A DNA stretch of 64,000 nucleotides from Methanofollis sp. W23. Lineage in GTDB: Archaea; Halobacteriota; Methanomicrobia; Methanomicrobiales; Methanofollaceae. Of the stretch, positions 2,716-28,187 are shown in pieces. Numbering within the stretch: position 1 is the first letter of the stretch; the number at the start of each line of letters is the position of its first letter. The DNA is taken from the NCBI RefSeq assembly GCF_017875325.1, contig NZ_JAGGMN010000001.1, positions 2,004,140-2,068,139 on the forward strand. Direction: 5' to 3'. The notes below the pieces were generated by a model. It made no database searches. It saw nothing but the letters and a program-made list of their open reading frames with translations, and was not told where the DNA came from. The position numbers were made by a program, and so were the translations under genes.

Positions 2716-3999
2716 TCATCTACCAATTAGATGCTGGCCACTTAACCTTACCGCCGGCAGGACGGCGCCGCCGACCGAGCGCTCCTCTCTGCCGAGGGCA
2801 GCGACCTCGCCAAGGAGGGCGAAGACGTTTCCGGCATACATCGCCCCTTTCACCGGGGCGACATACTCCCCGCCCTCCACGATGAAGGGGTTGGAGAGTT
2901 CGACCGAGAAGTCGCCGGTAAGCGGGTTGGCGGTATGCGCCCCGACGACGTCGTGGACATAGACCGCACGCTCGTCATCGACACTGTCCCTGGGACCGTC
3001 GACGACCAGAGTATGGACCCCGATGGCAGGCGCCCCGCCCGCACCCCCGCGGACCGCCGAACCCGTGCTCTCGGCCCCATAGCGGTAGGCGGTCCTGAGG
3101 TCGTAGGCATACTGCTGCAACTCGCCGTGATCGAAGAAGGTGAGTTTCCTGGCAGGCATCCCCTCGGCATCGAACTGCGTGCTCGAAAGCCCGCGGTCAA
3201 GAGGATTGTCGTGGACCGAGATCTCCTCGCCGATACAGACCTCGCCGAGTTTCCCGGCAAGCCAGGACCGCCCGGCATGGACATTCCGTCCAGAGAGAGC
3301 CGGTTCCAGGACATAGCCCAGGAGCTGGGCGAAGGCGACCGGGGAGAGGACCAGATCATAGTCGCCGGTCTCGATCTCCTCGCCGCCGCCGCTCTGCTCG
3401 GCAAAGAAGGCCGCCTCCCTGCCGACACGGACCGGGTCGATCTCGCCGGCAAAACAGGAGGCGTCGAACTCGTAGCCGGTCGACTGCCCGTGGATACATT
3501 CCAGCGAACACCCTGCGCTGGTCCGCGCCTGCTCGTAGCGCACCCCCGCGGTGTTGGCGATCACGACCTTGCCGCGGCTGACCGAGGCCCCGCCCCCGGT
3601 CACCGCCGCGTCATGCTCTTCCACGCCGTCAAGCATCTCTTCAAGGATCTTCCGGCACCATGCCGGGTCAAGCGAGAGCGAGGGGTCGAAGATCGCCGGG
3701 GCGTCGGGCAGGGCCGCCGGTGCAGGAAGGCCCTTCCATTCCTGCGGGTGGGCAAGGTTCGCACTCGCCAGAGCGGCGTCGACACAGCGGCGCCACTCAT
3801 CCCTGCTGCTCGTCGCCGAGACCCCGATCCGGCCATGATCGATGACCCGGATCCCGATCCCGAACGCCTCAGACCCGCCGGCATTTTCTACCTGCTTCTT
3901 CTTCAGATCGGTGGAGACCGACTCGCCCTCTGCGACATAGACCTCCACCTCTTCTGCCCGCGTACGCCCGTACTTCAGGATCTCTTCAATCAGTGCCAT
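2716..3999 (-). CDS. pmbA: PmbA/TldE-like metallopeptidase-family subunit
   Basis: A 427-residue member of the TldD/PmbA (U62/C69) family. The partner gene tldD ends inside its first codons (14-bp overlap), which is why I take the ATG at 3999 rather than the upstream extension to 4032. It lacks the HExxxH zinc motif carried by TldD, as expected for the non-catalytic TldE subunit. In bacteria TldD and TldE form a heterodimeric protease that degrades unfolded peptides and processes microcin B17 and some RiPPs. No RiPP precursor is visible next to it, so a general peptide-degrading role is more likely here. Confidence 0.88.
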   Translation of the reverse strand: MALIEEILKYGRTRAEEVEVYVAEGESVSTDLKKKQVENAGGSEAFGIGIRVIDHGRIGVSATSSRDEWRRCVDAALASANLAHPQEWKGLPAPAALPDAPAIFDPSLSLDPAWCRKILEEMLDGVEEHDAAVTGGGASVSRGKVVIANTAGVRYEQARTSAGCSLECIHGQSTGYEFDASCFAGEIDPVRVGREAAFFAEQSGGGEEIETGDYDLVLSPVAFAQLLGYVLEPALSGRNVHAGRSWLAGKLGEVCIGEEISVHDNPLDRGLSSTQFDAEGMPARKLTFFDHGELQQYAYDLRTAYRYGAESTGSAVRGGAGGAPAIGVHTLVVDGPRDSVDDERAVYVHDVVGAHTANPLTGDFSVELSNPFIVEGGEYVAPVKGAMYAGNVFALLGEVAALGREERSVGGAVLPAVRLSGQHLIGR

Positions 4000-5314
4000 T
4001 GCCACCCACCATCGCGTTTTCAAGGAAGACATGAGGCGAACCGTCGCTGACCGGGACGCTCTGCCCGCCCTTACCGCAGTAACCCTGGCTCATCGTGCGG
4101 TCGTTGCCGATGAGGGCAATCGCATGGAGCGTGCCCAGGATCTCGCCTGAGAGCGAGACGTCCCGTACCATCGCCCCGAGTTCGCCGCCCTCGATCAGGT
4201 AGCCGTACTCGGCATTGAACTGAAAGACCCCGCGGCCAGGATCGACCTGCCCGCCACGGGAACCCTTGAGGAGGATCCCGTCCTGACACTCGGCGACGAC
4301 CTCGTCGTACGAGGCGTCCCCCTCCTCGATGAACGTGTTGCTCATCCGCACCAGGGGCAGGTCGCCGGCACTGGCCCGTGCATGCCCGGCGACGCCGTTG
4401 CCGACCGCCGCCAGGGTCTGGCGCGAGTGCATGAAGGCATTCACCCGCCCGTCCTTGATCAGTTCGGTCCGTCCGACGGCCACCCCTTCGGCGTCCACCG
4501 GTTCGAACCCGAACTCAGGGAGCGTGGGGTCGTCGACGATGGTGAGACCTGCGGCGCCGATACGCTCGCCGGTCCGCCCGGCCAGCACCGAGGAGCCCTC
4601 CTGGACCAGGTCGCCCTCGCTTGCATGCCCGATCGCCTCGTGAGCAAAGACCCCGGCAAGTTCTGGGTCGAGGACCGCCCGCATCCTCCCGCCCTTCGCC
4701 GCCTTCGCGTCGAGGAGGGCAGAGGCGGTATCTGCCGCCTTCGCCCCCATCTCCTGGCGGTGGCGGAGGTTGAACCCAAGGATCGTATACTCGCTCTCGC
4801 GCCCCATCTGCATCTCGCCGTTCCTGGCGGCGACCGCCGTCACCGAGAACCCGCAACGCGGGACTTCGTAGACACACTCGGTCCCTGACGAGTCGAAGAA
4901 CCGCACTCCCTCGATCAACTCGGCATACCGGGCGCGGGTGTTCACGACCCCTGGCCGGTGAGCGGCGGCCTCGATCGCGGCAAGGGCCCCGGTCTTCTCC
5001 TCAAGGGAGATCTCCCGCGGGTCCTCGACGACGCCCGGCACGGCACGCACCTCGCGGGGCGCCGGGGCAAGGTCGACCTCCTCACCGGTGAGCATGGCGA
5101 GACGCACCCCCTTCTCAAGGAGGGGTTCGAGCGGGGCCTCAGGGTCAAAATTGTCCAGGGTCAGGACGCCCCAGCCCTTCGGGCCGAGCACCCTGACCAC
5201 TGCATGGTCGAAAAAACTGGTCCCCGCCGATTCCACGACCCCGTTATCGATGTCCACATGGGTGGAGGAACCGTGGACGTGGCGGACATCATAGTACCGG
5301 ACCTGTTCCATCAT
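3986..5314 (-). CDS. tldD: TldD metalloprotease subunit
   Basis: 442 residues. The zinc motif HEAIGH is at residues 225-230, followed by the family-typical SEGDLVQEGSSVLAG stretch, so this is the catalytic half of the TldD/TldE protease. The start is the first of two tandem ATGs (5314 and 5311), one base after the lonB stop; the frame upstream is inside lonB. Order lonB-tldD-pmbA-bofA-like with overlaps indicates one transcript. Confidence 0.92.
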   Translation of the reverse strand: MMEQVRYYDVRHVHGSSTHVDIDNGVVESAGTSFFDHAVVRVLGPKGWGVLTLDNFDPEAPLEPLLEKGVRLAMLTGEEVDLAPAPREVRAVPGVVEDPREISLEEKTGALAAIEAAAHRPGVVNTRARYAELIEGVRFFDSSGTECVYEVPRCGFSVTAVAARNGEMQMGRESEYTILGFNLRHRQEMGAKAADTASALLDAKAAKGGRMRAVLDPELAGVFAHEAIGHASEGDLVQEGSSVLAGRTGERIGAAGLTIVDDPTLPEFGFEPVDAEGVAVGRTELIKDGRVNAFMHSRQTLAAVGNGVAGHARASAGDLPLVRMSNTFIEEGDASYDEVVAECQDGILLKGSRGGQVDPGRGVFQFNAEYGYLIEGGELGAMVRDVSLSGEILGTLHAIALIGNDRTMSQGYCGKGGQSVPVSDGSPHVFLENAMVGGNGTD

Positions 5315-14252: not shown

Positions 14253-15991
14253 GTGTTCCCCACACGCGTGGGGATGAACCGATCTCGACAGTAGCACAGG
14301 CCCTGGGCCTTAAGTGTTCCCCACACGCGTGGGGATGAACCGGACCCGGCCCTGCTTGCAGGACGGGAGGATCAGTGTTCCCCACACGCGTGGGGATGAA
14401 CCGAGGATATTGTCCTCTGCTGCCTCTACTCCGGCGTGTTCCCCACACGCGTGGGGATGAACCGTTGGGAGTGACATTCTTCCCATCGCCAAGAGCGTGT
14501 TCCCCACACGCGTGGGGATGAACCGGCAGACCTCCGCGCTGAGGGGATGGTGGTCCGGTGTTCCCCACACGCGTGGGGATGAACCGCGCCGGGAGATCCG
14601 GGAGGCTGGCAGCCTCGAGTGTTCCCCACACGCGTGGGGATGAACCGGCATATGAATCTGCTCGCCGATGTTCGCATCAGTGTTCCCCACACGCGTGGGG
14701 ATGAACCGTCTACGTCGATGTCGTCGTCCTGGGCGGCCGCGTGTTCCCCACACGCGTGGGGATGAACCGGCGTCTTCGTTCTGTATTTCGGTCTGAAATT
14801 TGTGTTCCCCACACGCGTGGGGATGAACCGACGCAGAATCGGGCGCTATTATTACCAACTCCGTGTTCCCCACACGCGTGGGGATGAACCGGTCATTAAT
14901 TTGATTAAAGTTGCGGGAATTTAGTGTTCCCCACACGCGTGGGGATGAACCGTTAGGGAGCAGATTTGGATCTACAGTCATCGAGTGTTCCCCACACGCG
15001 TGGGGATGAACCTCAAGATCCGCAATTACCCCGAAGAGGCAATCCGTGTTCCCCACACGCGTGGGGATGAACCGATCATCACCACATCATCACCAGGTCA
15101 TCGATGGTGTTCCCCACACGCGTGGGGATGAACCGAAAATTGAAATTGAGGCGAGAGAGGAGGCTTCGTGTTCCCCACACGCGTGGGGATGAACCGAACA
15201 CTCTCTCTCTCTGGTGCGGGGCACCGACGTGTTCCCCACACGCGTGGGGATGAACCTTAGCGCGGTGAGCCGCGCCCAAGTCGTCACCCGTGTTCCCCAC
15301 ACGCGTGGGGATGAACCGGATGACAGACAATCCCTACCTGGGGAGATACGGTGTTCCCCACACGCGTGGGGATGAACCGCGATCAGGTACTATCAGAAAC
15401 GGACAATTGGCGTGTTCCCCACACGCGTGGGGATGAACCGCAGGGCTATCTGTGGCGCCTGCGGCCCTCCTCCGTGTTCCCCACACGCGTGGGGATGAAC
15501 CGTTCTATCAGCGGGGCAGGGAGCGAGATACAGCGTGTTCCCCACACGCGTGGGGATGAACCGGGTATCTTCCCTGCAAAGGCGAAGACCCATGAGTGTT
15601 CCCCACACGCGTGGGGATGAACCGATCCCTACGTCGATCCGTGGTCGGATCTGTTCGTGTTCCCCACACGCGTGGGGATGAACCGAATTTCTGGCAGTTG
15701 CCGGGGCCTCCGGGCCTGTGTTCCCCACACGCGTGGGGATGAACCGATGCAGCTAATCCGCGACGTCTGCGCCAAGGAGTGTTCCCCACACGCGTGGGGA
15801 TGAACCGAACAGCGCCCCCGGGTACTCGTCAATCTCCAGAGTGTTCCCCACACGCGTGGGGATGAACCGTCCTGCCCCCACCGATCCCAGGCGGCCTGAA
15901 GGTGTTCCCCACACGCGTGGGGATGAACCGTCTGCGTCCCGTCGGTTCTGTGACGCTGTGGAGTGTTCCCCACACGCGTGGGGATGAGTCA
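14253..15991 (+). CRISPR. Type I-E CRISPR array 1 (29 repeats, 28 spacers)
   Basis: 29-nt repeats begin GTGTTCCCCACAC and end GTGGGGATGAACCG, with a CCCCAC/GTGGGG hairpin, spaced every 61 bp (32-nt spacers). Two spacers are 33 nt (before the repeats at 15474 and 15841). The final repeat (15963-15991) is degenerate, ending GATGAGTCA, which marks the distal end. Two internal repeats (14985 and 15229) end in T instead of G. The array is on the same strand as the cas operon. The long open frames on its minus strand are translations of the repeats, not genes. Confidence 0.99.
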
Positions 15992-16180: not shown

Positions 16181-18856
16181 ATGGAGCACCAGACCGACCG
16201 CCCATACTATCGCTACTGGGCAAAGACACCCAATGAAGAGGAATCTGCTCCTATCGCACACCTCCTCCCATACCACGCCCTCGACGTCGCGGCGGTCGGG
16301 CAGGTCCTGCTCCAGAACGACCCCATTCTCAGGGCGAGGTTCGCCCCCCTCGGGATGGAGGACGAAGACCTCAACGCTTTCCTCTCATTTCTGCTTGCCA
16401 CCCACGACATCGGCAAGTTCTCCACCCCTGCCTTCCAGGCGATGGCCCCCGAGGTCGTACGACATCTCAGAGACGAGGAGGTCCACCTCACCTCAGACGC
16501 CCACCACTCCACCCTCGGCTACACCCTCTGGACCGAATATCTCTGGGATGCAACGACCGACGCCGGGTGTTTTGGTTTTGATGAGCCGATCGACATCGAC
16601 GACTGGCAGTACTTCCCCTTTCTCAGGGCGGTCTGCGGCCACCACGGCACCCCCCCCGAGAACTTCTTCGGCACCGGTACTTTCTCTGCCGAGGACCGCG
16701 AGGCCGCCCTCGCCTTTGTCGAGGACTGTGCCACCCTCTTCTTCTCAGGGCGTGCGGTACCCCTCCAGCCCGACAAAGATCTCGTCAAAGATGCAAAGAC
16801 GCTCTCCTGGATCCTGGCCGGGCTCTGTGTCCTTGCCGACTGGATCGGATCAGACAGGACATACTTCGGCTACCGCGACACCCCGCTCCCGCTCATCGAG
16901 TACTGGGCGACCGCCCTGGAGCAGGCCGACAGGGCCGTCAGAGCGAAGGGCGCGGTGCCGACCACACCCTCCACCAACGAAGGACTGGCCGCACTCTTCC
17001 CTGAGATCTTCCCGGCCCACACCCCCACCGACCTCCAGACCCACCTTGCCACCCGCCCACTCGGGTCAGGCCCTCACCTCTTCATCATCGAAGACGCCAC
17101 CGGGAGTGGGAAGACCGAGGCGGCGGTCAGCCTTGCCCACCGTCTGATGGCACGCGGCGAGGGCGAAGGGATCTATATCGCCCTCCCGACCATGGCCACG
17201 GCCAACGCGATGTACAGCCGGATCGCCGAGGCCGCCGACCACCTTTTTGTGGACGACACCTACTCTCTCGTCCTCGCCCACTCGGCCAGCCACCTGTACC
17301 AGACCATGCAGACATACCTGGACGGAACCACACCTGGAGAGAAAAAGCCCGCAAGTCCAGGATCTGTCTGGCTCTCAGACCGGCGCAAGAAGGCCCTGCT
17401 CGCACAGGTCGGGGTCGGGACCATCGACCAGGCCCTCCTCGGCGTCCTCCCGGTGCGCCACCAGTCGCTCAGGCTCCTTGGCCTTGCCAGGAACATCCTG
17501 GTCGTCGATGAGGTCCATGCCTGCGACCCCTACATGCACGAACTTCTCAGAAAACTCCTGGAGTTCCAGGCCAGTTTCGGTGGGAGTGCCATTCTCCTCT
17601 CGGCCACGCTCCCTGAACGGCAACGCAGAGACCTTGCCGGAAGTTTTGCCCGCGGGGCCGGGTGGCCTGCACCAGGCCTCAGCAAAAAAGACTGCTACCC
17701 CCTCGTCACCCACCTCTCCGGGGTCGGCACGGAAGAACAGGTCTGCAAGGCAAACGGTGAGAGACGGGTGGCGGTCAGCCTCACCTGTTCGGTGACAGAG
17801 GCCGAAACCGCGATCGTCGCCGCCGCAGACGCGGGCCGGTGCGCCTGCTGGGTGAGGAACACCGTCGACGACGCCATCGATGCCTACCTCCGGCTCAAAG
17901 CACGCCTGCCGCCCGGCACCGTCCACCTCTTCCATGCCAGGTTTGCCCTTGGGGACCGGCTCAGGATCGAGAAAGAGGCCCTCGACCGCTTCGGAAAGAG
18001 CACGGTGCAGCCGCGGGCAGGCCACGTGCTCATCGCCACGCAGGTCGTCGAACAGTCCCTCGACCTCGACTTCGACCTCATGGTCACCGACCTCGCTCCC
18101 ATCGACCGCCTCATCCAGCGGGCCGGCCGGATCCATAGGCACGACCGCGGCGAACGAGGAGAGGCACGGATCATCGTCCTCTCCCCACCGCCGGTCGACG
18201 ACCCCGGACGAGAATGGTACCGCACCTTCTTCAGAGGCGGAGCGGCGGTCTACCCCGACCATGCCAGACTCTGGCTGACCGCCCGACTCCTTGCAGAACG
18301 CGGGGAGATCGTCATCCCCCGCGACGCCCGGCCTCTCATCGAGGGGGTCTATGGGGAGGAGAGCGAGCAGGCCATCCCTGAAGGGCTCAGAAGAACAGCC
18401 GCCGAGGTGCAGGGCGCCGAGCATGCGGACGCCTCGTTCGCCCTCGAAAATGCCCTGAAGATCAGGACGGCATACTCCGCGACCGGAGGGCTCTGGGCCA
18501 GCGACACCAGGACCCCCACTCGCCTGGGCGACCCGACCGTCACCCTCCGCCTCGCCCGGTGGGACGGCACGAGGCTCTCCCCATGGGCAGATGGGCCAGA
18601 CCCCACAGCTGCCTGGGACCTCAGCCAGATAAGCGTTCGGGCGAGTTGGGTCGGGGGTCAGGCACCCCTCGACCCCACCCTCGACGAGGCCGTCGTCAGG
18701 GCCACAGAGACGATGCCCGATCGGGGGCGGACCGTCGTGATCGTTCCTCTCTCGGCACACGATGCGGTATGGGAAGGCCCTGCACTCGACGGCGCTGAAA
18801 ATGCGATCCTCATCCGCTATTCTGAGGAGATCGGGCTCGTGAACAGGAAAGTATGA
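16181..18856 (+). CDS. cas3: Cas3 nuclease-helicase, type I-E
   Basis: 891 residues. HD nuclease motifs: H32, H75-D76 (THDIGKF) and H154-H155 (GHHGTPP). SF2 helicase: Walker A ATGSGKTE at 306-313, DEVH at 443-446, then SATLPE, and motif VI-like LIQRAGRIHR. Cas3 is recruited by Cascade after R-loop formation and degrades the displaced DNA strand. All key residues are present, so interference should be functional. It is the first gene of the operon; a 64-bp gap separates it from cse1. Length fits the I-E family. Confidence 0.97.
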   Translation: MEHQTDRPYYRYWAKTPNEEESAPIAHLLPYHALDVAAVGQVLLQNDPILRARFAPLGMEDEDLNAFLSFLLATHDIGKFSTPAFQAMAPEVVRHLRDEEVHLTSDAHHSTLGYTLWTEYLWDATTDAGCFGFDEPIDIDDWQYFPFLRAVCGHHGTPPENFFGTGTFSAEDREAALAFVEDCATLFFSGRAVPLQPDKDLVKDAKTLSWILAGLCVLADWIGSDRTYFGYRDTPLPLIEYWATALEQADRAVRAKGAVPTTPSTNEGLAALFPEIFPAHTPTDLQTHLATRPLGSGPHLFIIEDATGSGKTEAAVSLAHRLMARGEGEGIYIALPTMATANAMYSRIAEAADHLFVDDTYSLVLAHSASHLYQTMQTYLDGTTPGEKKPASPGSVWLSDRRKKALLAQVGVGTIDQALLGVLPVRHQSLRLLGLARNILVVDEVHACDPYMHELLRKLLEFQASFGGSAILLSATLPERQRRDLAGSFARGAGWPAPGLSKKDCYPLVTHLSGVGTEEQVCKANGERRVAVSLTCSVTEAETAIVAAADAGRCACWVRNTVDDAIDAYLRLKARLPPGTVHLFHARFALGDRLRIEKEALDRFGKSTVQPRAGHVLIATQVVEQSLDLDFDLMVTDLAPIDRLIQRAGRIHRHDRGERGEARIIVLSPPPVDDPGREWYRTFFRGGAAVYPDHARLWLTARLLAERGEIVIPRDARPLIEGVYGEESEQAIPEGLRRTAAEVQGAEHADASFALENALKIRTAYSATGGLWASDTRTPTRLGDPTVTLRLARWDGTRLSPWADGPDPTAAWDLSQISVRASWVGGQAPLDPTLDEAVVRATETMPDRGRTVVIVPLSAHDAVWEGPALDGAENAILIRYSEEIGLVNRKV

Positions 18857-18920
18857 ACATGAAACACATGGTAGCCATGCGCAGAAAACGATGTGAAATG
18901 ATACAGACCAGGAGGCGCTC

Positions 18921-20525
18921 ATGCCCCTCAACCTGATCGCCGATCCATGGATCCCGGTCAGAAGAAAAGACGGCGAGACCAACAGCATTGCACCCTGGGA
19001 AATCACCAGTCGGCACGACGATAACCCGGTCATCTCAGTCACCTCGCCACGAGCAGACTTCGACGGTGCGATCACGCAGTTTATCATTGGCCTGTGCCAG
19101 ACCGCCCTCCCGCCTGAGAAGTGCACCGAGAAACAGGCCCTCCTCACACCTCTGACACCTGACGACCTCAGAGAGGCCTTCATCCCCCTTGCCGCGGCCT
19201 TCAACCTTGACGGCGACGGCCCCTGGTTCATGCAAGAACGCAACCTCGATCAGAAGAAGTCCTGGCAGATCGATAGCCTCCTCATCGGTATGCCTGAGGA
19301 CGAGAAGGTCAAGGACAACACAGACTTCTTCCAGAAGCGAGACACCATCACCGGGCTCTGCCCGGTCTGTGCCGCCGCCGCCCTCTTTACTCTCCAGACC
19401 AATGCGCCTGGCGGGGGCAGGGGTCACATGACCTCGGTACGGGGCGGAGGGCCGATGACCACTCTCATCCTCGGCGAGACCCTCTGGCAGACGGTCTGGG
19501 CCAATGTCGTCGACAGAGACCAGAGCCACGAGCCTCCCAGGGCCGACGACCCCGCCCTCTTTCCCTGGATGGGGGAGGTCAGGGTCAGCAGGGACGGGAC
19601 AAAGACCACTCCCAGAGACGTCCATCCCGACCAGGTCTACTGGGCGATGCCGAGAAGGATCCTCCTCGACTTCGAGGGGGGGAAGCCGGGGACCTGCGAC
19701 CTCTGCGGTCAGGAGACCGACCGGCTCATCACGAGGTACTGGGCGCAGCCCTACGGAGTGAAATATGCCGGGTGGACCCATCCCCTCAGCCCGTATTACA
19801 AGAAAAGCAAAAGCAGTCCAGAACTCCTCCCGGTCCACCCGCAACCAGGCGGGATCACCTATCTCAACTGGCTCGGCCTGGTCATCAACGACCGGGCCGA
19901 TGGAAAGCAGGTCGCAGAGAACGTCACCCGATTCCCTGACCGCACCAGAGGCAGGAGCGTCGCGGCCGTCTTCGGGCGCATGCCGCGGCTCTGGGCCTTT
20001 GGATACGATATGGACAACAAGAAGGCTAGGTGCTGGTACCAGGGCACGCTCCCGATCATCACCGTCGACGAAGAGTGGAAAGACGGTTTCGAGAACCTCG
20101 CCGCACAGATGGTGAGGGCCGCTGCCGACATGGCGCAGAACGTCCAGTGGTGCATCAAACTCGCCCTCTACGACAAACCCGGCGACGCCAAGGGTGACTT
20201 TTCGGTGATCAATGCAAGGTTCTACCAAGCGACCGAGAAAGAGTTCTACCAGATGCTCGAACACGAGGCAATACCGACCCTGAACAATGGCGGCGACACT
20301 CTTGCACTCAGGCAGGGATGGCTCAAGACCCTCCAGGCCGAGGGGCAGACGCTCTTCGAAGAGTATTCGCAGATCGACCTCATCGACGAGATCGATACAC
20401 AAAGGGCCATCACCGCCTGGCGGGCGCTGAAGAACCCCTTCTCCAAATTGAACAAAAAGATCAGGAAAGATCTCGACCTTCCTGACCTGAAAAAACAGAA
20501 AAACGCAGAAAAACGAGGTGAATAA
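18921..20525 (+). CDS. casA: Cse1 (CasA/Cas8e), Cascade large subunit
   Basis: 534 residues starting MPLNLIADPWIPV, the typical N-terminus of Cse1. It carries two Cys pairs (CPVC and CDLC) that could hold zinc, as in some Cse1 proteins. Cse1 reads the PAM and starts DNA unwinding. The GGAGG-like AGGAGG site ends about 6 bases before the ATG. The gene is followed 5 bp later by cse2. Confidence 0.95.
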   Translation: MPLNLIADPWIPVRRKDGETNSIAPWEITSRHDDNPVISVTSPRADFDGAITQFIIGLCQTALPPEKCTEKQALLTPLTPDDLREAFIPLAAAFNLDGDGPWFMQERNLDQKKSWQIDSLLIGMPEDEKVKDNTDFFQKRDTITGLCPVCAAAALFTLQTNAPGGGRGHMTSVRGGGPMTTLILGETLWQTVWANVVDRDQSHEPPRADDPALFPWMGEVRVSRDGTKTTPRDVHPDQVYWAMPRRILLDFEGGKPGTCDLCGQETDRLITRYWAQPYGVKYAGWTHPLSPYYKKSKSSPELLPVHPQPGGITYLNWLGLVINDRADGKQVAENVTRFPDRTRGRSVAAVFGRMPRLWAFGYDMDNKKARCWYQGTLPIITVDEEWKDGFENLAAQMVRAAADMAQNVQWCIKLALYDKPGDAKGDFSVINARFYQATEKEFYQMLEHEAIPTLNNGGDTLALRQGWLKTLQAEGQTLFEEYSQIDLIDEIDTQRAITAWRALKNPFSKLNKKIRKDLDLPDLKKQKNAEKRGE

Positions 20526-20530
20526 AAACC

Positions 20531-21037
20531 ATGGCAGATGCACCCGAGCAGGCGCAGGGCCAGACCGCCGGGCTCAACGCGGCGGTTCTTGGATGGTGGA
20601 GAGAGTTGCGAGATGAACGCGGGGCCAGGGCCGAACTACGGCGGTGCCACACCCCCACCGAGGTCGCCTTTGTCCCGGCTTACTACCGGCTGAAGGCGGC
20701 AGTGCCCAGGCTCGACGACCGGAAACTTGCGGCCGCCGCCGGCGTCCTCGCCCACGTGGACGAACCGGCAATGGGCGCCAGGATCGCCGAACAGTTTGCC
20801 CGCCCAAAGGACGGGGGGACCATGCCGCGAGTGAGCGAGGTACGGTTCCGCCGTCTCCTCAGGGTGGAGGACGATGACTACGAGGAACTCTACCCGATGA
20901 TGATCAGGTTGGTCCGCCAGGTCGACCGCACGGCGAACATCCCCGACCTTTTCTGGGGGCTCTACTCCTGGAATGCCCAGACCAAGAGGCACTGGGCCGA
21001 GGCGTATTACACGAACGTACCGTCGAAGAAAGAATGA
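20531..21037 (+). CDS. casB: Cse2 (CasB), Cascade small subunit
   Basis: A 168-residue helical, basic protein with the family-typical FVPAYYRLKAAVP segment and C-terminal LFWGLYSWNAQTKRHWAEAYY. Two copies line the Cascade belly and stabilise the displaced strand. An AGGTGAAT ribosome site overlaps the cse1 stop. Confidence 0.93.
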   Translation: MADAPEQAQGQTAGLNAAVLGWWRELRDERGARAELRRCHTPTEVAFVPAYYRLKAAVPRLDDRKLAAAAGVLAHVDEPAMGARIAEQFARPKDGGTMPRVSEVRFRRLLRVEDDDYEELYPMMIRLVRQVDRTANIPDLFWGLYSWNAQTKRHWAEAYYTNVPSKKE

Positions 21038-21049
21038 GGTGAAGAAAAA

Positions 21050-22198
21050 ATGTCTGAATTTATCCAACTGCACATGCTTGTATCGTACCCCCCGTCAAAC
21101 CTGAACCGCGACGATCTCGGGAAACCAAAGACCGCCAGGATGGGCGGGGCCCAGCGGCTCAGAGTCTCCTCACAGAGCCTGAAGCGGGCCTGGCGAGAAT
21201 CCGAGATCTTCCAGGAGGCCTTCGACGGCCACCTCGGGATCAGGACCAAGGAGATGGGCTGGCAGGTCTACCGCGCCCTGAAGAGTGGCCAGGGACTGGC
21301 CGACGTCCTCGCAGAAAATGAGAGTGCGCCGGTCCGCCCTGCCATCGAAGAGAAGAAGGCCGTCGCCTGGGCGCAGCAGATCGCCGGGCGGTTTGGGAAA
21401 CTGAAAAAACCCAAGGATTCAAAGGACGACGACGAGAAGGTCGACCCCGAGAAGCAAAAGAAAGAGTCGCTCTGTGTCGAACAGATGGTGCACTTCAGCC
21501 CTGCCGAGATCGCCGCCATCGACGACCTCCTCGGCCGCCTGGCAGAGGGCGGGAAGAAACCTGAGGAAAAAGATCTCGAACTGCTCAGGGCCGAGCGGAC
21601 CGGGGTGGACATCGCCATGTTCGGCCGGATGCTTGCCGCCTCCCCGGCCTTCAACTGCGACGCCGCCGTGCAGGTCGCCCACGCCATCACCGTGCACAAG
21701 GTGGCCGTGGAAGACGACTACTTCACGGCCGTCGACGACCTCAACCACAGGGATGAGGACAGCGGAGCGGGCCATGTCGGGCAGGCCGAGTTTGCCGCCG
21801 GGCTCTTCTACGCCTACCTCTGTGTCAACCGCGACCTTCTCGCCGAGAACCTGGACGGCGACGAGGAACTGACCGACCGGGGGGTCGAAGCCCTGGTGGA
21901 GGCGGCGGCCAAGGTCGGGCCGAAGGGCAAGCAGAACAGTTTTGCCTCACGGGCCTATGCCTCCTACATCCTGGCTGAGCGGGGGAGTGAACAGCCCAGA
22001 TCGCTCTCGGTGGCCTTCCTCAAACCGGTCGAAGGCGACGACTACCTGACCGCCGCGGTCGACGAACTCAGGACGACCAGGCAGAACATGGAGAAGGTCT
22101 ACGGGGCATGTGCCGATGGGTGCGTGGAGATGAACGCCGCGACCGGTGAGGGCTCGCTCGACGAGGTTCTTGCCTTTGTCACTGGTGACCATGCCTGA
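21050..22198 (+). CDS. cas7e: Cas7e (Cse4/CasC), Cascade backbone
   Basis: 382 residues. The N-terminal FIQLHMLVSYPPSNLNRDDLGKPKTARMGGAQRLRVSSQSLKRAWR is the conserved Cas7e start; six copies coat the crRNA. A lysine/aspartate-rich linker at about 120-145 (KPKDSKDDDEKVDPEKQKK) may be an insertion relative to the E. coli protein. AGGTGAAG precedes the ATG. It overlaps cas5e by 8 bp. Confidence 0.95.
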   Translation: MSEFIQLHMLVSYPPSNLNRDDLGKPKTARMGGAQRLRVSSQSLKRAWRESEIFQEAFDGHLGIRTKEMGWQVYRALKSGQGLADVLAENESAPVRPAIEEKKAVAWAQQIAGRFGKLKKPKDSKDDDEKVDPEKQKKESLCVEQMVHFSPAEIAAIDDLLGRLAEGGKKPEEKDLELLRAERTGVDIAMFGRMLAASPAFNCDAAVQVAHAITVHKVAVEDDYFTAVDDLNHRDEDSGAGHVGQAEFAAGLFYAYLCVNRDLLAENLDGDEELTDRGVEALVEAAAKVGPKGKQNSFASRAYASYILAERGSEQPRSLSVAFLKPVEGDDYLTAAVDELRTTRQNMEKVYGACADGCVEMNAATGEGSLDEVLAFVTGDHA

Positions 22199-22946
22199 AT
22201 TTCTGATCGTCCGGCTCTACGGCCCGCTGGCCTCGTGGGGCGGGATCGCCGTCGGGCAGTATCGTCCGGCCGAGAGCCACCCGTCCTGGTCAGGCGTCCT
22301 GGGCCTGGTGGCGGCGGCCCTGGGGATCCGGCGGGAGGACGTGGCAGGGCAGGCGGCACTCAGGGAGAGTTATCATATGGCTACCCTGGTCCATACGGAG
22401 GGGACGCTCCTGCGCGACTACCACACCACTCAGGTCCCGTCCGCGACGGTCAAGAAGCGGGCCTGGCCCTTTGCCACACGACGCGAGGAGTTGAGTGTGC
22501 CGCGGGACCATCTCAACACCATCCTTTCAAGCCGCGAGTATTACTGCGACACCCTCGCCACGGTCGCGCTCTGGCCGATGGTCGACGATCCCCCATACTC
22601 GCTCGCCGAGATCGCGGAAGCGCTCAGGCATCCGGCCTTTGTACCGTACCTCGGGCGGAAGTCCTGTCCGCTCGCCCTCCCGCTCCTGCCGCAGGTGGTC
22701 GAGGGCGCCGACCTCTATGAGGCCTTCAGCGCCGTCAGGTTCCCTGACCAGGAGATACTCGCCGACATCCCAGGGCGGGGCGATTCGGGAACGCTCTTCT
22801 GGGACAGCGAGGGAGAGACCGGGTTTGAGAGCGAAAACACCTACACGGCCCCACGGCGCGACGTGCCGCTGGACCGGATGACCTGGCAATTTGCAGAGCG
22901 GGACGAACACCGGGCGCAGGTCCTGGTCCCGGAGGGCGTGCGATGA
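22191..22946 (+). CDS. cas5e: Cas5e (CasD)
   Basis: 251 residues from the ATG at 22191 (MPEFLIVRLYGPLASWG), a start that matches the family and overlaps cas7e by 8 bp; the open frame from 22146 is an extension into cas7e. Cas5e caps the 5' handle of the crRNA. The family glycine-rich C-terminal and RDYHT motifs are visible. It overlaps cas6e by 4 bp. Confidence 0.95.
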   Translation: MPEFLIVRLYGPLASWGGIAVGQYRPAESHPSWSGVLGLVAAALGIRREDVAGQAALRESYHMATLVHTEGTLLRDYHTTQVPSATVKKRAWPFATRREELSVPRDHLNTILSSREYYCDTLATVALWPMVDDPPYSLAEIAEALRHPAFVPYLGRKSCPLALPLLPQVVEGADLYEAFSAVRFPDQEILADIPGRGDSGTLFWDSEGETGFESENTYTAPRRDVPLDRMTWQFAERDEHRAQVLVPEGVR

Positions 22947-23614
22947 GCGGACACACCTTCTACCGGATCCACCTCAAGGACGGGGCCGGGCAGGACCCGG
23001 CCTTCTGGCGGAGGGTCAGGAACCCCTACCAGGTCCACAAAATGGTCTGGCGGATCTTTTCGGACGGCTCCCACAAGGACCGCGACTTCATCTACCGCCT
23101 CGAGATGCAGGAGCACACCCCGGTGATCTATGCAGTCTCGACGGCCGACCGGGTGGACCTGGACGGGATCTGGAGGGTCGACGCAAAGGACTACCACCCG
23201 GCCCTCAGAAGGGGGGACCGGTTGGGGTTCAATCTCAGGGCCAATCCGGTCCGGACAAAGCGGGACGAAGAGGGGCGTCAGCACCGGCATGACGTGGTGA
23301 TGGACGCAAAGTACGCGATGGAGACGAGAGACAATATCGAGGTGGACCTGGTGCAGCAGGAAGGGTTTGCCTGGTTGGCCTCCAGAGGTGAGAGACTTGG
23401 GTTCAGCGTCGAGGAAGGTGCGGTCAGGGTCGACGGCTACCGCCAGCACCGGTTCAGGAAGCCGCGGTCAGGCCGAAGGGTGACGATCAGCACCATCGAT
23501 TTCACAGGCGCGTTGACGGTCACCGACCCCGACCTCTTCAAGGAGGCGCTCTACACCGGGGTGGGGCCGGCGAAGAGTTTTGGCTGTGGGCTCCTCCTGG
23601 TCAGGCGGGTCTGA
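22943..23614 (+). CDS. cas6e: Cas6e (CasE) crRNA endoribonuclease
   Basis: 223 residues. The segment NPYQVHKMVW places a His at 32 where the E. coli enzyme has its catalytic His20. The C-terminal glycine-rich loop GVGPAKSFGCGLLLVRR is the RAMP signature. Cas6e cuts the pre-crRNA at the base of each repeat hairpin; the repeats here have a matching 6-bp stem. ATGA overlap with cas5e. Confidence 0.95.
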   Translation: MSGHTFYRIHLKDGAGQDPAFWRRVRNPYQVHKMVWRIFSDGSHKDRDFIYRLEMQEHTPVIYAVSTADRVDLDGIWRVDAKDYHPALRRGDRLGFNLRANPVRTKRDEEGRQHRHDVVMDAKYAMETRDNIEVDLVQQEGFAWLASRGERLGFSVEEGAVRVDGYRQHRFRKPRSGRRVTISTIDFTGALTVTDPDLFKEALYTGVGPAKSFGCGLLLVRRV

Positions 23615-23623
23615 GGTGGTCGG

Positions 23624-24819
<1,196 letters not shown>

Positions 24820-24918: not shown

Positions 24919-26944
24919 GTGTTCCCCACACGCGTGGGGATGAACCGATATAATGCGTGACTCTCAGAAGAAATAAACAGTGTTCCCCACACGCGTGGGG
25001 ATGAACCGCCGCCTTTGCGGTGGTGGACTCCAGACCCGAAGTGTTCCCCACACGCGTGGGGATGAACCGTCGCTCAGCGCTGAACTCCAGAGCGAAGTGA
25101 AGTGTTCCCCACACGCGTGGGGATGAACCGTTCTAACTCACGGGATGTTAATGTTGTTTTTTGTGTTCCCCACACGCGTGGGGATGAACCGAACAACACT
25201 TCAACTTTTTTTGATGTGGGATAGTGTTCCCCACACGCGTGGGGATGAACCGTTTCTTTCCCCATTCTTCAAAATTTTTTTGCAGTGTTCCCCACACGCG
25301 TGGGGATGAACCGTTTAACTCCCCCTTTGACCTAGGGGCCTTATCGTGTTCCCCACACGCGTGGGGATGAACCGGTACCAACAAGCCCCGATCATCGACG
25401 CTGACAGTGTTCCCCACACGCGTGGGGATGAACCGAGGCAATACGGTGCCAGAGTTGCGGCGCAGATGTGTTCCCCACACGCGTGGGGATGAACCGGCGA
25501 TCTCCTCCTCAGTACTCGACCCTGCAGAGTGTTCCCCACACGCGTGGGGATGAACCGGGGCACTATTGTTTGGGAGATAGGGGTGAGACGTGTTCCCCAC
25601 ACGCGTGGGGATGAACCGAGCAGTCTGGAGGTGCCTCCCCCCCTCCAGTTGTGTTCCCCACACGCGTGGGGATGAACCGACCCCTCGCCACAACCCGCAC
25701 CCCCGGACCCCGTGTTCCCCACACGCGTGGGGATGAACCGCAGTCGCAGCCTAAACGCCGGCCAAGGGGCCGGTGTTCCCCACACGCGTGGGGATGAACC
25801 GGTAGGTCAGTTCGTCGAGGCGACCCTCAAGAAGTGTTCCCCACACGCGTGGGGATGAACCGGGGGGGCGAGCGCGTGAGCTGCGACGACTACGGTGTTC
25901 CCCACACGCGTGGGGATGAACCGGTCTCGGCCCAGAGGGTCCGGCGGGCGAGGAAGTGTTCCCCACACGCGTGGGGATGAACCGAGTGTTGATCGGTGCT
26001 TCCCCATCCGGCTTCTGTGTTCCCCACACGCGTGGGGATGAACCGGCACCCAAACGTTTGAGAACGGCGGCAACACAGTGTTCCCCACACGCGTGGGGAT
26101 GAACCGAAACGGGAGAGAGTTAGGGGAGCAACCCCGCGGTGTTCCCCACACGCGTGGGGATGAACCGTTCTTCATCATAAATTTTTAATTCAGCATATTG
26201 TGTTCCCCACACGCGTGGGGATGAACCGCCCCTCGCGAGGTCCTCTCCCAGGTTGCAGAAGTGTTCCCCACACGCGTGGGGATGAACCGATTGCCAGGGC
26301 CATCAAGAAGAATCCCAATATGTGTTCCCCACACGCGTGGGGATGAACCGTTTTTATTATTCCCCTGCGTGATTTTTATGACGTGTTCCCCACACGCGTG
26401 GGGATGAACCGTAGGTCCACTCGGGCGCGGCGCGGCGGTCGGCGTGTTCCCCACACGCGTGGGGATGAACCGGCGGGGATCAACACTGAGCTGCAGACGC
26501 GGTGGTGTTCCCCACACGCGTGGGGATGAACCGGTGAGCGTACCCAGGGCGCTCGTCATCTGTCGGTGTTCCCCACACGCGTGGGGATGAACCGATCCAC
26601 ATCTCCACTTCTTCCCTGGTGACTGGGTGTTCCCCACACGCGTGGGGATGAACCGACCGAAAAAACGTCTGAAGCGCCGCCTGGACAGTGTTCCCCACAC
26701 GCGTGGGGATGAACCGTTGATCGACCCGTCGAGGCCGGTGGTGCCGGAGTGTTCCCCACACGCGTGGGGATGAACCGGAGACGCTTCTGAGGTCTTCGAT
26801 CCGATGCGTGTGTTCCCCACACGCGTGGGGATGAACCGTGGTGTTTGCCGGCGGCGGGGTGTCGGGGTAGGTGTTCCCCACACGCGTGGGGATGAACCGT
26901 CCTTCTTTCGATTCGTGCTATTTGTTGTGTGGTGTTCCCCACAC
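24919..26944 (+). CRISPR. Type I-E CRISPR array 2 (34 repeats, 33 spacers)
   Basis: Same 29-nt repeat as array 1, with strictly 61-bp spacing throughout. The last repeat (26932-26944) is cut after GTGTTCCCCACAC. All complete repeats end in G. Leader-proximal spacers 1 and 4-6 are strikingly A/T-rich compared with the host. The array lies directly downstream of cas2 on the same strand. Frames on the opposite strand are repeat translations. Confidence 0.99.
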
Positions 26945-26998
26945 TCAATACAGGAGAGCAGTTGCATTCACGCGTACGTCCTGAGAAGGTAAGAATTC

Positions 26999-27245
26999 AG
27001 GCTCTGTAAAATCAGGCATGATCCCTGGACTCAGACATAGAGGATGAACATGATCGTGGATTTCTGGGTCGTCTACTGATCTGGGTTCCTCCTCTGGAGC
27101 AAGACACGACGCGGGAAGATCATCAAATGGCCGCCCCCACCCATCATGCCGGAGGCGCGCTCCAAACAAGAAAGTATGGGAAGATGGGGGAGGCATGGTC
27201 ACACCATGAATTGGTGAGGAGTCCTCCAGGGCCCCGCACCAGGAT
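26999..27245 (+). repeat. Composite of dispersed repeat fragments
   Basis: It starts GGCTCTGTAAAATCAGGCATG, the terminus of the second repeat family (also at 45684), and continues with the GATGAACATGATC block shared with 36.63 and 51.09 kb. Bases about 27130-27240 resemble an eroded A-type palindrome ending GGTGAGGAGTCCTCCAGGGCC. No gene. Confidence 0.5.
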
Positions 27246-27385
27246 AGCAATAATGGTCTCCCCCATGCATAAAAGAGAGAAAGATAAACCCCAACGACCA
27301 ACCCCTGTATGGTCGCTCTCCCACACAGGGAGGAGCAGACCATGACACGCATTTCTTCGGGAGGGCGTGGCCCAGAGAAGACACT

Positions 27386-27472
27386 GACCTTCCCCACCCT
27401 GTGGGGATGTACCGTGCAACGGCTAGAGAACGATGCTTCAACGCATCTCTTCCCCACCCTGTGGGGACCCCG
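27386..27472 (+). CRISPR. Relic two-repeat array with a variant repeat
   Basis: The identical hairpin TTCCCCACCCTGTGGGGA occurs at 27390 and 27450, exactly 60 bp apart. The first copy continues ATGTACCG, close to the ATGAACCG end of the active repeats. The spacer-like interval is about 31-32 bp. This looks like a dead remnant of an I-E-like array with a different stem/loop (CACCCTG instead of CACACGCG). The second copy lies in the 3' end of the exonuclease gene on the other strand. Confidence 0.6.
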
Positions 27473-27995
27473 CCACCCCCCCATAAAACCCCTGGCGCCG
27501 CAGGGCATAATAACACTCCGCACAGAGACGTGCGTCGTCGAGCGCCCGGTGCACCTCCTCGCATGGTTCTCCAAAAAGCACCTGGTAGAGTTCAGAGAGC
27601 CGCGGCCACTTGTACCCCCACGCCCGCCTGATCCCGCAGAAGGCCGCCGTCGATTCCATCGTGCAGCACCCCGGAAGACCGGCGAAGGGATCGGGACGGA
27701 CAAGACGCCGGCACTCTCCCCGCACCACCGCCAGGTCATAGGCCAGGTTATGGGCAACCACCCCTGAGACCCCAACTGCGTCCCTTGCGAGGTCGGCAAG
27801 CACTCCCGCCAGCGCCGTCCCCTCCTCTCGTGCCCTGGCCGTGGTGATCCCATGCACCTGCACCGCCGACGGCGGGATCACAAACCCCTCAGGACAGACC
27901 AGCCTGCTCTCCTCGCGCACCACCCCACACGAGACATCACAGACAAGCCAGGCCGCCTCGACCAGCCGCGGCGGCTCCTCCCCACGCCTCAACAC
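27438..27995 (-). CDS. DnaQ-like DEDDh 3'-5' exonuclease; 5' end anomalous
   Basis: 185 residues from the GTG at 27995. Motif II (AHNLAYDLAVV) and motif III (HRALDDARL, H-x4-D) of DEDDh exonucleases are clear. The first catalytic motif (VLVLDVETTG) is encoded in the same frame just upstream, at about 27996-28025. That extension runs back to a TGA at 28047-28049 with no ATG, GTG or TTG; an ATGATGAGAATG run sits there in another frame. So either a CTG start is used or a 1-base shift has inactivated the gene. The last residues are encoded by the relic CRISPR repeat. Homologues proofread or trim DNA 3' ends. Confidence 0.7.
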   Translation of the reverse strand: MLRRGEEPPRLVEAAWLVCDVSCGVVREESRLVCPEGFVIPPSAVQVHGITTARAREEGTALAGVLADLARDAVGVSGVVAHNLAYDLAVVRGECRRLVRPDPFAGLPGCCTMESTAAFCGIRRAWGYKWPRLSELYQVLFGEPCEEVHRALDDARLCAECYYALRRQGFYGGVAGSPQGGEEMR

Positions 27996-28187
27996 CCCGG
28001 TCGTCTCGACGTCCAGGACCAGAACATTCTCATCATCCCTCAGATCTCACACCCCCCCATCCATAGGAAAAACCTGGAACCAAAAGAGGAGATAAACTTT
28101 CTCTTCTGCGTCAAACCCATAATCCTCTTCTCCCCTCAAGCCACACATAATCTCACACGTTCTCTGACCAGACCGGAGCAGACCATC

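Follow-up and report, generated by a model that had tools for sequence, protein, structure and literature searches.

A hairpin pair beside a type I-E CRISPR-Cas locus of Methanofollis sp. W23 as the probable remnant of a CreR-type gene

RNA-guided autorepression of cas genes by CreR (Cas-regulating RNA) has been described for CRISPR-Cas systems of types I-B, I-E and V-A (PMC13131331; PMC12737573). Repeat-derived RNAs are also found in the antitoxin CreA of the CreTA systems, and in the solitary repeat units known as Racr, RNA anti-CRISPRs which in the account of PMC10651486 are encoded in viral genomes. The 64,000-nt stretch of the Methanofollis sp. W23 genome analysed here (the window; the whole genome is 2.9 Mb) contains a pair of hairpins close to a type I-E cas operon, and we propose, with a probability of about 0.7, that these hairpins belong to the repeat-spacer-repeat body of a gene of the CreR type, here uncoupled and decaying.

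From sequence features we infer that a CreR-type gene would act as a mini-CRISPR with one spacer and no leader; Cas6e would cleave its transcript at the hairpins and release a crRNA-like RNA. In the relatives of W23 Cascade would take up this RNA and be guided by its seed to a PAM-flanked target at the promoter or in the 5' untranslated region of cas8e. Transcription of the Cascade genes would be blocked there, and free Cascade would in this way repress itself. In the window the hairpins are still formed and the guide no longer fits the site; the second repeat most likely survives partly as coding sequence of an exonuclease.

Anatomy of the hairpin pair and its locus

The features of the locus are as follows, in window coordinates.

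16181..24819, + strand: type I-E cas operon, intact open reading frames for cas3, cas8e/cse1, cse2, cas7, cas5, cas6e, cas1 and cas2 (open reading frames; Pfam for cas3, cas8e, cas1 and cas6e)
18857..18920, + strand: cas3-cas8e gap, about 64 nt, with no all-A/T 8-mer
18891..18922, + strand: position equivalent to the target in relative G005 (offset −30 from cas8e); ATGTGAAATGATACAGA here, TAGTGAAATTATAGAGA in G005; unmatched by the window guide
24919..26944, + strand: CRISPR array 2, with repeats of 29 nt at a 61-nt period, final repeat truncated at 26944
26982..27145, + strand: dispersed intergenic repeat, in the place of an upstream region common to relatives; another dispersed piece lies at about 27176-27232
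27387..27414, + strand: psi-repeat 1 (28 nt), hairpin at 27390-27407 and 8-nt 5' handle ATGTACCG at 27407-27414
27415..27446, + strand: psi-spacer, the guide region of 32 nt, TGCAACGGCTAGAGAACGATGCTTCAACGCAT; without a seed match in the cas3-cas8e gap of the window
27447..27474, + strand: psi-repeat 2, hairpin at 27450-27467, handle lost (ACCCCGCC), overlapping the C-terminal codons of the exonuclease
27438..28043, − strand: gene for an RNase_T/DnaQ-type exonuclease; its start codon is uncertain and it converges on the psi-repeats (Pfam PF00929, E 5.7e-12)

The cas operon is flanked by two CRISPR arrays, which begin at 14253 and at 24919, and its closest cas1 relatives lie on contigs of Methanofollis and other Methanomicrobiales. 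The original prediction of two identical hairpins 60 nt apart was borne out: TTCCCCACCCTGTGGGGA stands at 27390-27407 and again at 27450-27467, a start-to-start spacing of 60 nt, and the copies are identical over 19 nt if the preceding C is included. When up to three mismatches are allowed, TTCCCCACCCTGTGGGGA is matched twice in the window, where chance would give 0.05 matches; none of 100 shuffles reached two. Exactly two exact copies are present in the W23 genome, both of them belonging to this pair, and a reversed control pattern has no copy there.

The first copy runs into ATGTACCG, identical at seven of eight positions to the active crRNA 5' handle ATGAACCG. The further suggestion that the pair has another stem proved mistaken. 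The stem-loop of the active repeat is GTGTTCCCCAC-ACGC-GTGGGGATGAACCG and that of the pair ACCTTCCCCAC-CCT-GTGGGGATGTACCG; folding gives both the same 7-bp stem (psi-repeat 1 folds at −11.5 kcal/mol), with a loop of 4 nt (ACGC) in the former and 3 nt (CCT) in the latter. The 60-nt period therefore consists of a repeat of 28 nt and a spacer of 32 nt, against 29 + 32 nt for the 61-nt period of the active arrays. The stretch 27387-27474 has the anatomy of a crRNA-like gene, with Cas6 hairpins, a 5' handle and a single spacer outside the arrays, and it is physically linked to its cognate cas locus, 2.6 kb downstream of cas2 and past array 2. Psi-repeat 1 lies 455 nt past 26932, where the truncated final repeat of array 2 begins, and is out of phase with that array. 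The second hairpin falls inside the minus-strand exonuclease reading frame that ends at 27438, and one repeat does encode the C-terminus of an exonuclease (RNase_T), as had been noted. Loss of the handle is common in the last repeats of arrays.

An array with a repeat type of its own was rejected, because the stem is not different and no live array was found to carry the short-loop repeat: in its own genome both copies are those of the pair, among 232 genomes of the order the 3-nt-loop hairpin occurs in 15, in one or two copies each, and the viral_contigs set has no exact copy. An array holding viral memory was likewise rejected, since no protospacer was found in viral_contigs (no exact match to either 18-nt half of the spacer) or in a phage collection, where 28-nt matches had E 0.9. 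What survives of the dying array originally proposed is a repeat-derived unit outside the main arrays that looks decayed; the repeat type of its own does not.

Several side observations concern the surroundings of the unit. Between 27268 and 27343 there are an A+T-rich box, the motif GGAGGAG and an ATG, from which an open reading frame runs through the entire repeat-spacer-repeat unit. Searched with 26935-27395, the genome gave 42 matches, and among the matches listed most fall on the 26982-27145 stretch; genomes G001, G005 and G004 gave 40, 37 and 19. Many copies of this dispersed repeat are about 70-80% identical over some 145 nt, and it is possibly a MITE-like or other interspersed element. 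The incomplete genome G001, one gene of which is 94% identical to a window neighbour, has at about 3960-4221 of locus L198 a lone I-E repeat behind leader-like sequence, adjoining a partial exonuclease match and with no cas8e found, the apparent scar of a lost I-E locus. An array of G005 (L017, 765-887) has two neighbouring repeat-spacer units that look identical at both displayed ends, a duplicated spacer. The RNase_T/DnaQ-type exonuclease gene recurs beside I-E loci of Methanomicrobiales (the window, L029, L030, L031, L032, L125, L130, L131 and L132), standing upstream of cas3 in L032; a neighbouring exonuclease of this kind might trim prespacers.

Units in relatives and their match to the cas8e upstream region

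The 14 other genomes with the short-loop hairpin were retrieved and compared with the window, and the repeat pair recurs in two settings. In the window, G133, G005, G007, G112 and G092 it is found at the tail of array 2, with the 3' end of the exonuclease gene at psi-repeat 2. The setting of the four g4 genomes (G087, G101, G105 and G108) is another one: there it stands about 200 nt upstream of cas3, and a TATA-like box, recognised by eye, directly precedes the first repeat. The unit of G009 does not have the short loop and was found independently through the cas8e and exonuclease genes, as a displaced or variant form; G003 has a variant form at an array tail, and G107 and G216 have related repeats with no readable cas gap. 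The single hairpins of G086 and G145, which have no CRISPR context, are probably due to chance. In L128 of G107 (at 264) the first repeat of a seemingly genuine array has a 3-nt loop, behind upstream sequence that resembles that of the stand-alone units of the sister species, and it is possible that the unit originates from a leader and first repeat.

In eight relatives, namely the four g4 genomes, G133, G005, G009 and G003, the unit and the cas3-cas8e gap could both be read, and the seed (spacer positions 1-5 and 7-11, ten positions) was scored against the genome's own gap; G007, G092, G112, G107 and G216 fall outside this count, having short-loop repeats and no cas3-cas8e gap on the available stretch. 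All eight seeds match the gap at 9 or 10 of the ten positions, and the guides of the array-tail units in G133 and in the same-genus genomes G005 and G009 match their own cas8e upstream region at 10/10. A whole-genome pattern search with the seed common to G105 and G108 pointed to the cas3-cas8e gap, as did one with that of G005. The PAM is AAG in five of the relatives, ATG in two and TTG in one. Guide position 6 is unpaired in type I-E Cascade, and spacer position 6 differs from the target in seven of the eight. The sites lie at −111 to −113 from cas8e in the g4 genomes, right at a TATA-like box, and at −26 to −38 in the other four, downstream of an A+T-rich box (in G003 recognised by eye only); the G003 guide has its match at −38, a different place in that gap.

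Shuffled spacers, scored without use of the PAM, reached the scores of the eight relatives 0, 0, 1, 1, 1, 21, 30 and 39 times per 2000. In a cross table of spacers and gaps, seeds score 9-10 in their own gap or that of a sister species and mostly 6-8 in those of other species, apart from values of 9 for the G087 spacer in the G105 and G108 gaps and for the G003 spacer in the G009 gap. The G105 unit also matches the antisense strand at the start of cas3 over 12 nt, but this match runs into the handle and lacks a PAM and was disregarded for those reasons. Where both parts are readable, the unit of the relatives appears to be a regulatory guide that fits the sequence upstream of cas8e.

The stem of the first repeat changes on both sides at three of its seven pairs, with 13 such cells against a shuffled mean of 3.1, in a set of 11 sequences, among them the window pair and a single canonical repeat. 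None of 500 shuffles reached the covariation score, a comparison to be read with the caveat that kinship among sequences can beat such shuffles in the absence of structure, and slid controls fell far below it. This pattern speaks for a hairpin under selection in the relatives.

A wider scan of 58 I-E loci (11 of them hand-picked, and L030 and L177 being the same locus), in which PAM, seed, handle and hairpin were all required, gave hits in 19, compared with 2 when the target was reversed. Among the 47 loci taken from the cas1 search alone, 12 had a hit, compared with 2 in the reversed control. G005 does not appear among these 19, since TTG, its PAM, was not one of those accepted in the scan; the hit in L029 and, in L193 and L194, the second hit appear to be due to chance. 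Candidate CreR units with an AAG PAM were also seen in the bacterial I-E loci L043, L044, L069, L082, L085, L086, L099, L104 and L105, near the gap and on the strand opposite to cas8e (for example in L085, L099 and L104).

The window guide and competing explanations

The window guide has no seed match with a PAM at its own cas promoter, and this copy is therefore not counted as a working CreR. Its best seed score in its own gap is 6/10, which 1959 of 2000 shuffles equal, and in a wider test that included the cas3 upstream region 941 of 1000 shuffles did as well. The gap itself measures only about 64 nt, against 97-101 nt in G005, G009, G003 and G133, and the all-A/T 8-mer test finds no TATA-like box in it. 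By the same strict test the box is lacking in G003, where TATTTAT is present by eye and the guide is kept, and in the gap of L029, which has no credible unit. G005 and G009 have an upstream region in common (local score 84, shuffled maximum 22), to which the sequence upstream of the window unit shows no similarity; what stands there instead are dispersed repeats, of which the genome has tens of copies. It is this combination, of no seed match, a short gap without a TATA-like box and dispersed repeats upstream, that leads us to read the window unit as an uncoupled and decaying CreR, decay being most likely rather than re-aiming. There is only a weak resemblance between the window spacer and the spacers of four relatives (p 0.04 in shuffles of the summed identity), so that the case for common descent is built on position and repeat form.

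A less likely reading, which nevertheless deserves some weight, makes the pair the ordinary leader-distal end of array 2, its degenerate terminal repeats never regulatory in this lineage and the last of them absorbed into the 3' end of the exonuclease gene. It would account for a guide without a target, and it draws on G112 and G092, where the short-loop repeat keeps the phase of the array end beside the exonuclease, on L029, whose last array repeat touches the exonuclease with no separate first repeat found, and on G009, which has two further repeats between unit and exonuclease. Set against this are the distance of the window unit from array 2 and its lack of phase, the 3-nt loop in both of its repeats, and the full seed matches to cas8e upstream regions carried by the units at this very place in G005, G009 and G133. 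Re-aiming of a CreR is distinctly improbable. On this account the cas8e promoter was lost, the seed then changed and the hairpins were kept, and Cascade would now repress the promoter of another W23 gene in trans; it would, if true, be a natural CRISPR-interference regulon derived from an autorepressor. The repeats are indeed well formed, the window guide differs from that of G007 mostly in the seed (2/9 positions identical, against 7/9 in the next nine), and the G003 guide has found another place in the same gap. The window, however, has no 9/10 seed site with an AAG- or ATG-type PAM, and the 100 nt before psi-repeat 1 contain no A+T-rich 8-mer. Genome-wide, the guide has three one-mismatch matches (the surroundings of two were inspected by eye) against nine for the control pattern, and a second pattern search gave 44 against 219 for its reversed control.

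Very little can be said for the remaining two explanations. A CreTA-like antitoxin RNA, which would repress the gene of a small toxin immediately before it (ATG 27343, preceded by GGAGGAG), could appeal to the A+T-rich box, the Shine-Dalgarno-like sequence and the ATG before psi-repeat 1, and to the two degenerate repeats described for creA genes in PMC8501985. It was rejected, since no match of the spacer to a toxin promoter, in the form of a seed with an AAG-type PAM, was found within 3 kb on either side; much of the upstream region is moreover dispersed repeat, and in the relatives it is the cas8e upstream region that is targeted. Transcription terminators or chance hairpins are just as improbable. 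A T run (CCTTTTTCC) follows psi-repeat 2 in G133 and G005, where this repeat may also end transcripts, but the window hairpins have no T run, contrary to what ordinary terminators would lead one to expect, and the handle, the 60-nt pairing and the covarying stems are features of CRISPR.

Relation to described systems

The relatives provide eight concrete CreR candidates in archaeal type I-E systems, and their seed match to the cas promoter is the decisive clue for reading a repeat-spacer-repeat leftover beside an array. The window and L029, which both lack the all-A/T box together with a matching guide, may represent a natural experiment in the loss of RNA-guided autorepression.

With the Racr units of PMC10651486 the window unit shares a repeat mimic outside arrays, but it stands beside a host cas locus and has two repeats and a spacer. 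It resembles the tail of a type I-E array in its equal stem, nearly equal handle and 32-nt spacer, and differs in its distance of 455 nt and its 28-nt repeat, and in that the equivalents in relatives carry a guide matching cas. As described for CreA (PMC8501985, PMC9458426), two degenerate repeats surround one spacer, the handle is conserved and there is no leader; no match to a toxin promoter was found, however, and in the relatives the target is the cas operon. The closest likeness is to CreR as described in PMC13131331 and PMC12737573, a crRNA-like RNA whose spacer, with seed and PAM, is partly complementary to its own cas promoter and whose gene adjoins the cas locus. The window copy differs from it in having no match to its own cas promoter, and the methanogen units are placed either at an array tail beside the exonuclease gene or upstream of cas3. 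Judged by their sequences, the units of the relatives fit the CreR kind, and they are presented here as members of that known kind, with no claim that these loci are reported for the first time.
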